From the NCBI GenBank assembly GCA_026988115.1, contig JALSLV010000016.1, forward strand, positions 1-64,000: 64,000 bases of DNA, read 5' to 3'. The DNA comes from Lysobacterales bacterium (lineage in GTDB: Bacteria > Pseudomonadota > Gammaproteobacteria > Xanthomonadales > Marinicellaceae). The number at the start of each line of letters is the position of its first letter. Positions within the stretch are counted from its first letter, which is position 1. A model generated the notes under the pieces. That model did no database searches, was not told the DNA's origin, and was given only the letters and a program-made list of their open reading frames with translations. Shown one piece after another: positions 18,473 through 22,962 of the stretch. The translations under genes were made by a program, and so were the position numbers.

Positions 18473-19633
18473 TTACGACACAACATTAGCATCTAAAAAA
18501 TCCACTACTACTTGAGAAGCATTTTTGTTTGGGTTGAGTAAGCTTTGGTGAAGTTCGGTAAATTCTTTTGTCAGTTGATTTTGCTTTTCTTTACCAAGCA
18601 AGGGTATTAATTCCTTGCATAGGTTTTCGACTGTCATGTCTTTTTGTAAGACTTCAGCTACCATAAAATCACCTTTGATTACATTGGGTAAACAATAGTA
18701 CGGCAATAACATCATATTGAATGTTTTGACGATTCCATACGTAATTGGAGAAATTTTATAACCCACGACCATAGGCGTTTTGCATAACATGGCTTCTAGT
18801 GCCACTGTTCCAGATGCCAACAGGGCAAGGTTTGCGGCTTTTAAGACTTGTGTGGCATCATCAAACATGTCGATTTTTAAATCATTATCTTTGGCGACTT
18901 TTAGAATAAAGTTTCTTTTTTCTTGAGTGGTATTGGCTGAAATTATTTGTAATTCAGGGTTGGTCTGTTTGAGTTGCTTAGCTGTTTTAATAAAAATTTG
19001 CGTGTGTGCTTTGAGTTCGTTGTTTCTTGAGCCTGGCAAAACAGCCAGTACTGGTTTTTTATTCTCCAGTGCCAATACCTTTTTAGCTTTTTCTTTGTCT
19101 ATATCAAGTGAGATATTTTCTGCCAAAGGATGTCCAACAAAGATGGCTTTGCCGCCATATTTTTCATAGTATTGTGGCTCAAAAGGAAACAAGGTCATGA
19201 CTAAATCTGTTAGCCTACTTATTTTGACAGCTCTCTTGGGGCGCCATGCCCAGATGGATGGGCTGACATAATGGATAATTTTAACACCCTGTTTTTTAAG
19301 TTTCTTTTCTATTGGAAAATTCAAATCTGGAGCATCTATGCCAATAAAAACATCAGGTTTTGCGGCGCTAATTTCTTTGACAATATATTTTCGAAGTTTT
19401 AATAATTTAGGTAACTTTTTAAAGATTTCGGCAATGCCCATTATGGAAAATTCTTTATTCGAGCTAATCAAGTTCAAACCAGCCTCTACCATTTTATCTC
19501 CACCTACGCCGATAAATTGGATAGAAGAGTTAATTTTAAGTGTGTTTTTAATTAATTCAGCACCGAGTAAATCCCCAGAGTCTTCTCCAGCTATGATGGC
19601 AATTATTTTTGTATTGACGCTCATAATATTCAT
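18473..19633 (-). CDS. lpxB: Lipid-A-disaccharide synthase
   Basis: 386 residues, as usual for LpxB. It joins UDP-2,3-diacylglucosamine and lipid X to form the lipid A disaccharide, at the inner face of the inner membrane. The N-terminal GEDSGDLLGAELIK, the GVGG segment, FVGHPLAENI, LPGSRNNELKAH and SGTVALEAML are family hallmarks. The ATG at 19633 overlaps the stop of the preceding thioredoxin-like gene by 4 nt; an in-frame ATG at 19624 is an alternative. In most gammaproteobacteria lpxB follows lpxA directly, so the gene in between is a departure. Confidence 0.95.
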   Translation of the reverse strand: MNIMSVNTKIIAIIAGEDSGDLLGAELIKNTLKINSSIQFIGVGGDKMVEAGLNLISSNKEFSIMGIAEIFKKLPKLLKLRKYIVKEISAAKPDVFIGIDAPDLNFPIEKKLKKQGVKIIHYVSPSIWAWRPKRAVKISRLTDLVMTLFPFEPQYYEKYGGKAIFVGHPLAENISLDIDKEKAKKVLALENKKPVLAVLPGSRNNELKAHTQIFIKTAKQLKQTNPELQIISANTTQEKRNFILKVAKDNDLKIDMFDDATQVLKAANLALLASGTVALEAMLCKTPMVVGYKISPITYGIVKTFNMMLLPYYCLPNVIKGDFMVAEVLQKDMTVENLCKELIPLLGKEKQNQLTKEFTELHQSLLNPNKNASQVVVDFLDANVVS

Positions 19634-20691
19634 TCAAACATCAAGGATATACCACTGACATCAGTGCCTTGTGTTTTTTTGTATCCTTTAAACATGCTAG
19701 GGTATTTTTCTAGTGCTAATGTTTCTATAACTGTATTTTTATTGTCTAGTTTATCGACTTCTATATAACTGAATTTTAAATTAGCGACTTTTAGCTTTTT
19801 ATTGAGCTGTTGACAGATACCATTATTACTTTGACAATAAATGGCTATTTTTGGAGTTCCATTTTCGTGAAAATGTTTACTATAGAGTTCTTTTTCAATT
19901 GAAGTTAAATATTGATTTCCGAAAGTCGATCCCAACAATTCAATTAAACCAGTATTACTACTATCAGTTAGAATGTTTTTACCTGCCATCACCAATGGAA
20001 ATTTATCTTTAGAGTACTTCTTCCATAGCTTATATTTATCATCATCTTTTAATCTAGTGTTGATAATGTAGTGTTCATGAGGAACTTTACGGGCTCTTAA
20101 ATTACCCAAGACTTGCGAACATTCTTGCTGGCAACTTTTATTGGTAAACACCATAACAATAGGGTCACCATATTCATCAAAACCATCGCCTGATATATCT
20201 GTTGTTATGGCTTTTAGCCAAAAAAACCAAAGAGCAAAAAGAACTAGTCCAGCTTTAAACATCAACCCTATTGGGAGCTTCCTTTTGTTACTGTAGATTA
20301 TTGTACTACGATTAAAACGGGGCTTATCTTCCCAGTTTATATCAACTTGCTGTTCAACTTTTGGCTTTTTCTTGAAATAATTGAATAACCTCGCCAATAA
20401 ACGAGGCTTTCTTTCACCTTCATTTTGTTCATCACTTGACTGGGTAAAATACGTTTGGGCAGGTTCTAACTTAATCTCTACACCACTGTCTTGTAATAGT
20501 CGTTTGATTTCATAGGCTCTTGCATGTTCCAAGGACTCATGCAAGATTTGTGATTCTCTTGAATTAATCAATTTAAGAGCTTGGGTTGGTGTAATGTCTG
20601 AATGTTGACCTATTCGCTCAGCAGCGATAGCTTTATCAATTTGCTTTTTATATCGTCCCGTAACTATAACTCTAAATTTATTGTGTTCCAT
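19630..20691 (-). CDS. Membrane-anchored protein with two thioredoxin/glutaredoxin-like segments, between lpxA and lpxB
   Basis: 353 residues from ATG 20691 (GTG 20694 is the alternative); AAGGT lies upstream. Residues 1-70 are a small alpha/beta domain (RVIVTGRY, then HARAYEIKRLLQDSGVEIKLEP) that resembles ribosomal L7/L12-C/ClpS-like folds. A basic linker leads to one membrane helix (about 145-163, PIGLMFKAGLVLFALWFFWLKAI). The C-terminal 190 residues contain two thioredoxin-like units: IVMVFTNKSCQQECSQVL with CxxxC, and KIAIYCQSNNGICQQL. No canonical CxxC is present. Topology suggests the redox-like part is periplasmic. Coupled to both neighbours, so expressed with lipid A synthesis. Role unknown. 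Confidence 0.75.
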   Translation of the reverse strand: MEHNKFRVIVTGRYKKQIDKAIAAERIGQHSDITPTQALKLINSRESQILHESLEHARAYEIKRLLQDSGVEIKLEPAQTYFTQSSDEQNEGERKPRLLARLFNYFKKKPKVEQQVDINWEDKPRFNRSTIIYSNKRKLPIGLMFKAGLVLFALWFFWLKAITTDISGDGFDEYGDPIVMVFTNKSCQQECSQVLGNLRARKVPHEHYIINTRLKDDDKYKLWKKYSKDKFPLVMAGKNILTDSSNTGLIELLGSTFGNQYLTSIEKELYSKHFHENGTPKIAIYCQSNNGICQQLNKKLKVANLKFSYIEVDKLDNKNTVIETLALEKYPSMFKGYKKTQGTDVSGISLMFE

Positions 20692-20702
20692 CACATGTTA
20701 CC

Positions 20703-21482
20703 TTACCGAATAATGCTGCGGCTACTGGAGTTGATAAAATCAACCATTAATTGTACGCATGGGTGCTTATCTGCTAGTTTCTGCATTTGAATTAATGCAT
20801 CCGTTAAACGCAAGTCGGATTTGTATAAATAACGAAAGGCTTTTTTCAGTGCGCTGATGTCTTCTTGACTATAGCCACGGCGTTTGAGCCCTTCAGCATT
20901 GATTATGCGTGGTTTTGCTGGACTGCCTTGTGCCATGACATACGGAGGTAAATCTTTTTGGAAGTTCGTATCCATTGCCGTAAAGGCATGTGCACCTATT
21001 CGGCAAAATTGGTGTAACTTTGTAAAACCACCAAGAATAACATAATCATCCAAATGCACATGACCTGCTAAAGTGGCGCAATTGGCAATGATAATATTAT
21101 TTGCCAAGACACAATCGTGGGCGATATGAACATACGCCATTATCCAATTATCATCGCCAATTTGTGTTAAACCTTTATCATCCACTGTACCACGGTGGAT
21201 GGAAACGTATTCGCGGATTGTGTTGTTATTTCCTATCAGGGTTCGCGTTGGTTCTCCCTGATATTTTTTATCTTGAGATTCTTCGCCAATAGAGCAATAT
21301 TGAAAGATGCGATTATTTTCACCAATATCCGTGTGCTTTGCGATGGTTGCGTGGTGCTTTATTTCAGTCCCCTTACCGATGGTGACATCTGCTTCAATTA
21401 TAGTAAAAGCACCTATCTGGACATCATCGGCAATTTGAGCAGATTCGTCAATTATGGCTGTTGGGTGTATTAATTGACTCAT
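20703..21482 (-). CDS. lpxA: UDP-N-acetylglucosamine acyltransferase
   Basis: 259 residues. First enzyme of lipid A synthesis, adding 3-hydroxyacyl from ACP to UDP-GlcNAc. The chain is a left-handed beta-helix of hexapeptide repeats (IADDVQIGAFTIIEADVTIG), with the catalytic histidine in the HIAHDCVLANN segment and the substrate-binding HRGTVD motif. The C-terminal helical part (NAEGLKRRGYSQEDISALKKA) is typical. It begins 2 nt after the fabZ stop. The order lpxD-fabZ-lpxA is the standard gammaproteobacterial one. Confidence 0.96.
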   Translation of the reverse strand: MSQLIHPTAIIDESAQIADDVQIGAFTIIEADVTIGKGTEIKHHATIAKHTDIGENNRIFQYCSIGEESQDKKYQGEPTRTLIGNNNTIREYVSIHRGTVDDKGLTQIGDDNWIMAYVHIAHDCVLANNIIIANCATLAGHVHLDDYVILGGFTKLHQFCRIGAHAFTAMDTNFQKDLPPYVMAQGSPAKPRIINAEGLKRRGYSQEDISALKKAFRYLYKSDLRLTDALIQMQKLADKHPCVQLMVDFINSSSRSIIR

Positions 21483-21484
21483 AA

Positions 21485-21946
21485 TTAGCTTTTACTGGCA
21501 CACAACAACTCAGCTTTAGCAACCACTTTTCCATCAACAGTTGCTTGACAAACGTATTGCACCATATTGCGCATCCTGCGCTTTATAGTCGTATGCAAAT
21601 GCAGTTGATCACCTGGTATGACCGTTTTGGTGAATTTTGCCTTATCCACCTTAACTAAGTAAAAGATGTCTTCTTCATTAGTTAACTCGCCTATTGCTAA
21701 ACGCGATAATATTCCTGAGGCTTGTGCCATTGCTTCTATTATCAACACGCCTGGCATAACTGGATATTTTGGAAAATGCCCATTGAAGTGGGGTTCATTA
21801 AACGTGACATTTTTTATGGCGGTCAAATGTTCTCCAAGTTTATAATCAATCACTCTATCCACTAATAAAAAAGGGTACCTGTGTGGTAACAATTTCATTA
21901 TTTTTGTAACTTCAACACTGTTTAGTGTATTGTTTTCTTCTGTCAT
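21485..21946 (-). CDS. fabZ: 3-hydroxyacyl-[acyl-carrier-protein] dehydratase FabZ
   Basis: 153 residues, hot-dog fold. It dehydrates 3-hydroxyacyl-ACP in fatty acid elongation, competing with LpxA and LpxD for the same substrate, which explains the shared operon. The active site is seen in HFNGHFPKYPVMPGVLIIEAMAQ (histidine and glutamate). The N-terminal LLPHRYPFLLVDRV is conserved. Start overlaps the lpxD stop by 4 nt (ATGA). Confidence 0.96.
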   Translation of the reverse strand: MTEENNTLNSVEVTKIMKLLPHRYPFLLVDRVIDYKLGEHLTAIKNVTFNEPHFNGHFPKYPVMPGVLIIEAMAQASGILSRLAIGELTNEEDIFYLVKVDKAKFTKTVIPGDQLHLHTTIKRRMRNMVQYVCQATVDGKVVAKAELLCASKS

Positions 21947-22962
21947 TTTTTGCTCTCTTGCTTTTCCAAACGCGTTAGTCGTTTAGCTATTTTGTCTAAT
22001 TGTTTAATTCTTACAGCACTTTTTCGCCAATCTGATGTTTCTTGCAGAGGTGAAACCGAACTATAACTTCCTGGTTTTTTTATACTACGCGTCACTAACG
22101 CCATGGATTGCAGTGTCACATTATCACAAACCTCTATGTGTCCAATTATACCCACACCGCCTCCTATTAGGCAATTTTTACCAATTTTAGCAGACCCTGC
22201 CACTGCAGAACAACCCGCCATAACCGTATGAGCACCTATCTTAACATTGTGGGCTATTTGTATCTGATTATCTAGATGGACATCATTTTCTAAAACGGTA
22301 TCATCCATTGTCCCTCTATCAATAGTTGTGTTGGCGCCAACTTCGCAATCATCTCCAATAACAACAGCCCCCAGTTGTGGCACTTTTACCCACTTATCTT
22401 TATCTCGCGCTAAACCAAAGCCATCCGCTCCAATAATACAGCCTGGGTGCAGTATAACATTTTCACCCAGCGTGCAATTATCTGAGATAACAACATTGGG
22501 TTTGATTAAGCAATTTTTACCTATACGGCAATTATTTCCAATCGACACACGGGCTTCTAAAACTGTACCATCTGCTATAACTGTATTCTCTCCAATAATT
22601 GAATATGCTCCAATATGGACATTACTACCAATAATAGCAGAATCTGCAATAACTGTATTTGGGTGAATTTCATGAATCACTTCTTTAGAATTTTGAAAAA
22701 GTGCGGCAATCTTAGCAAAGACGACGTAAGGGTCATTGGCAATGATTTGATTGCCTTGAAAAGAGTCACTATTTTCCTTAGTAAGAATTACAATACCAGC
22801 TTTTGTTGTCTCAAGCAGTGACGTGTATTTTGAATTGGATAAAAAACTAAGGTGATGAGATTTTGCCGAGTCCAGCGTGGCAACAGCACTTATTTGGTGG
22901 TTGGAATTGCCTTGAAATTCTGCATCGAATTTTTGAGCCAACTCCCCTAGACTAATTTTCAT
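21943..22962 (-). CDS. lpxD: UDP-3-O-(3-hydroxyacyl)glucosamine N-acyltransferase
   Basis: 339 residues, normal for LpxD. Third step of lipid A synthesis (N-acylation). The N-terminal uridine-binding domain (1-100) is followed by hexapeptide repeats forming the beta-helix; QIAHNVKIGAHTVMAGCSAVAG holds the catalytic histidine. The C-terminal helix (KQLDKIAKRLTRLEKQ) closes the trimer. It overlaps the end of the skp-like gene by 11 nt. Confidence 0.95.
   Translation of the reverse strand: MKISLGELAQKFDAEFQGNSNHQISAVATLDSAKSHHLSFLSNSKYTSLLETTKAGIVILTKENSDSFQGNQIIANDPYVVFAKIAALFQNSKEVIHEIHPNTVIADSAIIGSNVHIGAYSIIGENTVIADGTVLEARVSIGNNCRIGKNCLIKPNVVISDNCTLGENVILHPGCIIGADGFGLARDKDKWVKVPQLGAVVIGDDCEVGANTTIDRGTMDDTVLENDVHLDNQIQIAHNVKIGAHTVMAGCSAVAGSAKIGKNCLIGGGVGIIGHIEVCDNVTLQSMALVTRSIKKPGSYSSVSPLQETSDWRKSAVRIKQLDKIAKRLTRLEKQESKK

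Follow-up and report, generated by a model that had tools for sequence, protein, structure and literature searches.

Protein disulfide oxidoreductases (PDOs, e.g. 1a8l and 2hls) are soluble proteins with two thioredoxin-type units per chain and CxxC sites, and Sco proteins use a CxxxC motif plus a distant histidine. LpxI, the known insert between lpxA and lpxB of Alphaproteobacteria (PMC3087551), indicates that a gene inserted here can belong to the pathway. Here we describe another gene located between lpxA and lpxB, gene X, in a contig from a Lysobacterales bacterium (JALSLV010000016.1, positions 1–64,000; this whole stretch of 64,000 nucleotides is referred to as the window). Like LpxI, gene X sits between lpxA and lpxB, but its predicted folds, which are of the glutaredoxin type, are unrelated to that of LpxI, and its host genome already encodes LpxH, which scores over its cut-off. 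X matched no LpxI family in Pfam or NCBIfam, and the presence of LpxH leaves no gap of the kind that LpxI fills; the possibility that X replaces a missing lipid A enzyme was rejected on this ground.

Gene X (19630–20691, minus strand) encodes a protein of 353 residues. It begins with an ATG at 20691 (an in-frame GTG lies one codon earlier), 11 bases downstream of the end of lpxA at 20703 (lpxA, 20703–21482, minus strand), and its stop codon, which ends at 19630, overlaps the ATG of lpxB at 19633–19631 by 4 bases in the form ATGA (lpxB, 18473–19633, minus strand); both neighbors were assigned from their open reading frames and relatives. The gene is single-copy in its own genome (G000), and homologues occur at the same locus in five other genomes of the genus, with 98, 87, 79, 48, and 36% identity. 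For the whole gene, dN/dS is 0.08–0.12 (G000 or G003 compared with G006 or G008, and G006 compared with G008), and for the individual domains it is at most 0.13 wherever computable; pairs that include G004 give 0.2–0.37, but these are divergent alleles for which dS is near saturation. Because homologues are present at the same place in five genomes and dN/dS is 0.08–0.12, X is a real gene under purifying selection and not a chance open reading frame. Thus, an earlier note on this DNA, made from the sequence alone, was right that a gene of this length lies between lpxA and lpxB and overlaps the latter.

Modeling of full-length X with AlphaFold2 from six sequences gave a model of moderate quality (mean pLDDT 71.7, pTM 0.51) that comprises an N-terminal domain, a helix, and two C-terminal domains. 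The N-terminal domain (residues 5–77; 20461–20679, minus strand) has a pLDDT of about 66–78 within this model and a mean pLDDT of 86.6 when modeled alone with ten rows. Residues 2–78 superimposed by VIA on 8yeq with a Z of 10.6 (rmsd 1.8 over 71), on 1ctf with a Z of 10.0 (rmsd 1.9 over 68), and on ClpS with a Z of 9.0–9.5 (7d34, Z 9.5), and the top 27 rows of a Foldseek search with the domain alone were all ClpS or ribosomal L7/L12-type entries. The domain is therefore predicted to share the β-α-α-β-α-β fold of the C-terminal domain of ribosomal protein L7/L12 (1ctf, PF00542; Z about 10), from which it differs in being fused to a membrane protein, and that of the adaptor ClpS, to which identity in the superpositions is ~10–15%. 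X itself gave no match to PF00542 up to an E of 10. Among ten relatives of the domain, two reach E 0.06 at best against PF00542, none matched the Pfam ClpS family, and none gave a significant match to any Pfam family.

The N-terminal domain is not confined to X. We found matches to it in 50 of 274 genomes of the class, in proteins whose remaining parts, as labeled by eye, are zinc ribbons, membrane regions of several helices, repeats, or parts resembling a peptidase or an ion channel. The domain is thus a widespread gammaproteobacterial module with no significant Pfam match among the members scanned, and it probably serves as a common module for protein docking that has been fused onto a tandem-glutaredoxin membrane protein. 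We note that many copies of the domain, in loci L089–L117, are followed by repeats resembling DTSxLSLAEVGVxLVE, and that a second protein containing the domain (an open frame of 236 residues, G000:C16:82524-82742) is encoded on the same contig outside the window.

Between the N-terminal domain and the C-terminal domains lies a single predicted transmembrane helix (residues 141–163; 20203–20271, minus strand). These residues are helical in the model, the Kyte-Doolittle mean over residues 141–159 is 1.99, and lysine and arginine are distributed unevenly around the helix: the 33 residues that precede it contain 8, and the 30 that follow it contain 1. Under the positive-inside rule this charge bias would place the N terminus of X inside and its C terminus outside, and hence both glutaredoxin domains would be periplasmic, a placement that draws only on charge and hydrophobicity.

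The two C-terminal domains, mostly at a pLDDT of 80–90 in the full model, match glutaredoxin and NrdH structures when compared by VIA. Specifically, domain 1 (residues 176–261; 19909–20166, minus strand), superimposed as residues about 167–262, had its best Z of 11.0 with 3ic4, 3zij, and 3zit (rmsd 2.0 over 75 for 3zij), and domain 2 (residues 264–353; 19633–19902, minus strand), superimposed as residues about 262–353, gave a Z of 9.1–9.6 with glutaredoxin domains, including 9.6 with the Grx part of Schistosoma TGR (3h4k, rmsd 2.8 over 86). The two units of X do not superimpose as a pair on those of PDOs (rmsd 13–14), which likewise have two thioredoxin-type units per chain, and a sequence search of X against solved structures returned nothing meaningful. 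Structure prediction thus supports every domain proposed in the earlier note, including the L7/L12-C/ClpS-like domain and the single membrane helix, with the refinement that the two thioredoxin-like units are of the glutaredoxin type rather than generic thioredoxins.

X contains no CxxC motif. In domain 1 a CxxxC motif (C187-x3-C191; 20119–20133, minus strand) is followed by P232 at the cis-proline position, and in domain 2, P331 is kept at the cis-proline position and the site that corresponds to a CxxC (residues 286–293, C-Q-S-N-N-G-I-C; 19813–19836, minus strand) reads NGIC. Alignment of eight relatives, including the standalone anchored forms described below, showed that C187, C191, P232, H273, C293, and P331 are among the invariant positions, so that the CxxxC of domain 1 is present in all eight. 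A WCxxC is present in domain 2 of G004, G009, and all three standalone relatives, and in G000, G003, G006, and G008 the first cysteine is replaced by Asn290, C293 is kept, and there is a new cysteine at position 286. The lack of CxxC in domain 2, which the earlier note had observed, therefore appears from the alignment to be a loss within the sub-clade of G000. Despite this loss, domain 2 has a dN/dS of 0.06–0.11, and this purifying selection suggests changed use of the domain rather than decay.

Against PF00462, X itself scores 15.8 bits, below the cut-off of 22.9; the homologues in G004 and G009 pass this cut-off with 43.6 and 50.1 bits, and that in G009 matches PF00462 with E 3e-13 and the YruB-family model TIGR02196 with E 1e-18. 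X has the fold and cis-proline position of glutaredoxins, NrdH, and the YruB family in both C-terminal domains but differs from them in being tandem and membrane-anchored, in having CxxxC in domain 1, in lacking, in its own clade, the first cysteine of domain 2, and in scoring below the TIGR02196 cut-off. With neither the CxxC nor the CxxS active site of glutaredoxins, X is a relative of these proteins and not a standard member.

A CxxxC in a thioredoxin-type fold is also what characterizes Sco-type copper chaperones, and domain 1 (C187-x3-C191 within a glutaredoxin fold) shares this feature. Domain 1 could accordingly be a metal site, for example for copper, perhaps completed by His273, which lies between the two domains and is as invariant as the CxxxC, making X a metal chaperone or sensor. 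We regard this reading as quite unlikely, as the best fold matches are to glutaredoxin and NrdH rather than Sco and we noticed no copper genes next to the standalone relatives. The fold and sequence matches listed for X do not include the Sco/PrrC family, to which X may nonetheless belong.

We somewhat favor the explanation that X is a thiol protein with two glutaredoxin folds in tandem, anchored in the membrane and probably periplasmic, to which a generic docking domain has been fused and whose gene was captured in the lpx operon of a single lineage. X would be a single-pass inner-membrane protein with its glutaredoxin domains in the periplasm and its L7/L12-C/ClpS-like domain in the cytoplasm. 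Its working site would most likely be domain 1, where the CxxxC and the cis-proline may form a thiol-disulfide or thiol-binding site, and domain 2 may have changed in one sub-clade from an ancestral WCxxC redox unit into a non-redox partner, presumably for substrate binding or structure. The genome encodes a DsbD-type protein, which is a possible periplasmic source of electrons for X. Weighing against this explanation are the scores of X below the Pfam cut-offs, the moderate quality of the model and the simple basis of the topology, and the nonstandard CxxxC, which may mean that X binds metal or has no activity.

To what extent X belongs to the lipid A operon can be gauged from gene order. The order lpxA-X-lpxB is found in 6 of the 11 genomes of the genus (the contig of one, G008, ends just after X): all six full-length homologues of X follow lpxA, and lpxB comes next, adjacent or overlapping, wherever the contig continues. 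Two members, G001 and G005, have no X; there lpxA ends its cluster, and lpxB-rnhB lies beside mraZ. In G007 and G010 an unrelated gene follows lpxA and lpxB was not found in the assemblies (rnhB of G010 is cut at a contig start), and in G002 an assembly gap breaks both lpxA and lpxB. We do not read the apparent absence of X from G002, G007, and G010 as loss, since in these assemblies contig ends cut the lpxB region or the region is absent, and X may precede lpxB in them. The gene is thus fixed between lpxA and lpxB, as the earlier note had it, with respect to every full-length homologue found and not with respect to the genus as a whole. In two sister genera lpxB directly follows lpxA in all 20 loci fetched. 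In a tree of LpxD-FabZ-LpxA, G001 and G005 fall outside the other members of the genus, and the placements of G007, G009, and G010 are not separated; the tree thus fixes neither how often nor when X was gained or lost.

Outside the genus, X is rare. A search of 369 genomes of the class with an X profile gave one further strong match, which lies in G343 (E 6e-48) and covers the two-glutaredoxin part, and 41 genomes of the family of G343, another gammaproteobacterial family, contain three such genes (G343, G479, and G480). These standalone relatives consist of a short hydrophobic N-terminal anchor followed directly by two glutaredoxin domains, with no N-terminal domain of the kind found in X, and they lie among unrelated neighbors with no lpx genes nearby. 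For the two-glutaredoxin part, such unlinked relatives among unrelated neighbors are the finding that the earlier note had named as refuting its reading. A 398-genome sample of the phylum gave a match to X only in the window's own genome. A mobile origin was considered and rejected, with no match found in plasmids or phages. The gene in G343 is frameshifted (L072, about 1480–1510), apparently by a short tandem duplication.

That X occupies the lpx locus in one genus only and is sparse elsewhere could mean that it is a passenger, a gene that came to lie in the operon and has been retained for a role that is minor or unrelated. We consider this very improbable given that every domain is under purifying selection and that the 4-base overlap with lpxB is common to G000 and G009 even though identity between their X proteins is only 36%.

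Alternatively, X could serve lipid A synthesis specifically, as a regulator or scaffold: its L7/L12-like domain would dock LpxA, LpxB, or another pathway enzyme in the cytoplasm, and its periplasmic domains would report the redox state of the envelope. The strict placement of X in the operon in all six genomes that have it, which is also an argument against the capture that we favor, would fit such a role, as would the lack of any listed terminator-like site on the coding strand from lpxA to X. However, G001 and G005 manage without X, the presence of LpxH leaves no pathway step that needs it, and the relatives of its two-glutaredoxin part lie away from lpx genes. We therefore judge a dedicated role in lipid A synthesis to be unlikely, and its more specific form, in which periplasmic thiol (or metal) state is coupled across the membrane to lipid A synthesis through action of the L7/L12-like domain on LpxA or LpxB, to be highly improbable. 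The earlier note had argued from co-expression to a function in lipid A or outer-membrane biogenesis; the operon layout stands, and the function is only a guess from operon position in one lineage, because the two-glutaredoxin relatives are unlinked to lpx genes and the N-terminal domain occurs in many unrelated proteins. We infer instead that X carries out thiol chemistry in the periplasm and that its operon position reflects capture: the gene would have entered the lpxA-lpxB junction in one genus and would now be translated together with lpxB.

In the libraries searched, no described family matched that combines an L7/L12-like domain, a membrane helix, and tandem glutaredoxin domains with degenerate motifs. 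We found no literature on a tandem periplasmic glutaredoxin, and among the titles and abstract openings retrieved for lpxA, lpxB, and glutaredoxin none was about such a gene. X is a new architecture built from known folds. Because X overlaps lpxB translationally in one genus, it becomes possible to test whether the redox state of the envelope is linked to lipid A, and analysis of X also brought to light an N-terminal domain that is widespread among proteins of Gammaproteobacteria.

Two further observations concern the lpx region itself. In several related MAGs, contigs (L061, L144, L063, and L031, from G002, G010, G004, and G008, respectively) stop within or shortly after lpxA, X, lpxB, or rnhB, a pattern that would be expected if the region varied among the populations sampled. 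In addition, the lipid A genes at 18473–22962 are mosaic. Relative to G004, lpxA is 98% identical, while divergence begins in X at about residue 76 and extends in lpxB to about residue 150; relative to G003, X is 98% and lpxB 79% identical; and the identity of lpxD dips around residues 50–125 relative to both. From these alignments, the mosaic pattern looks like the product of allelic exchange.
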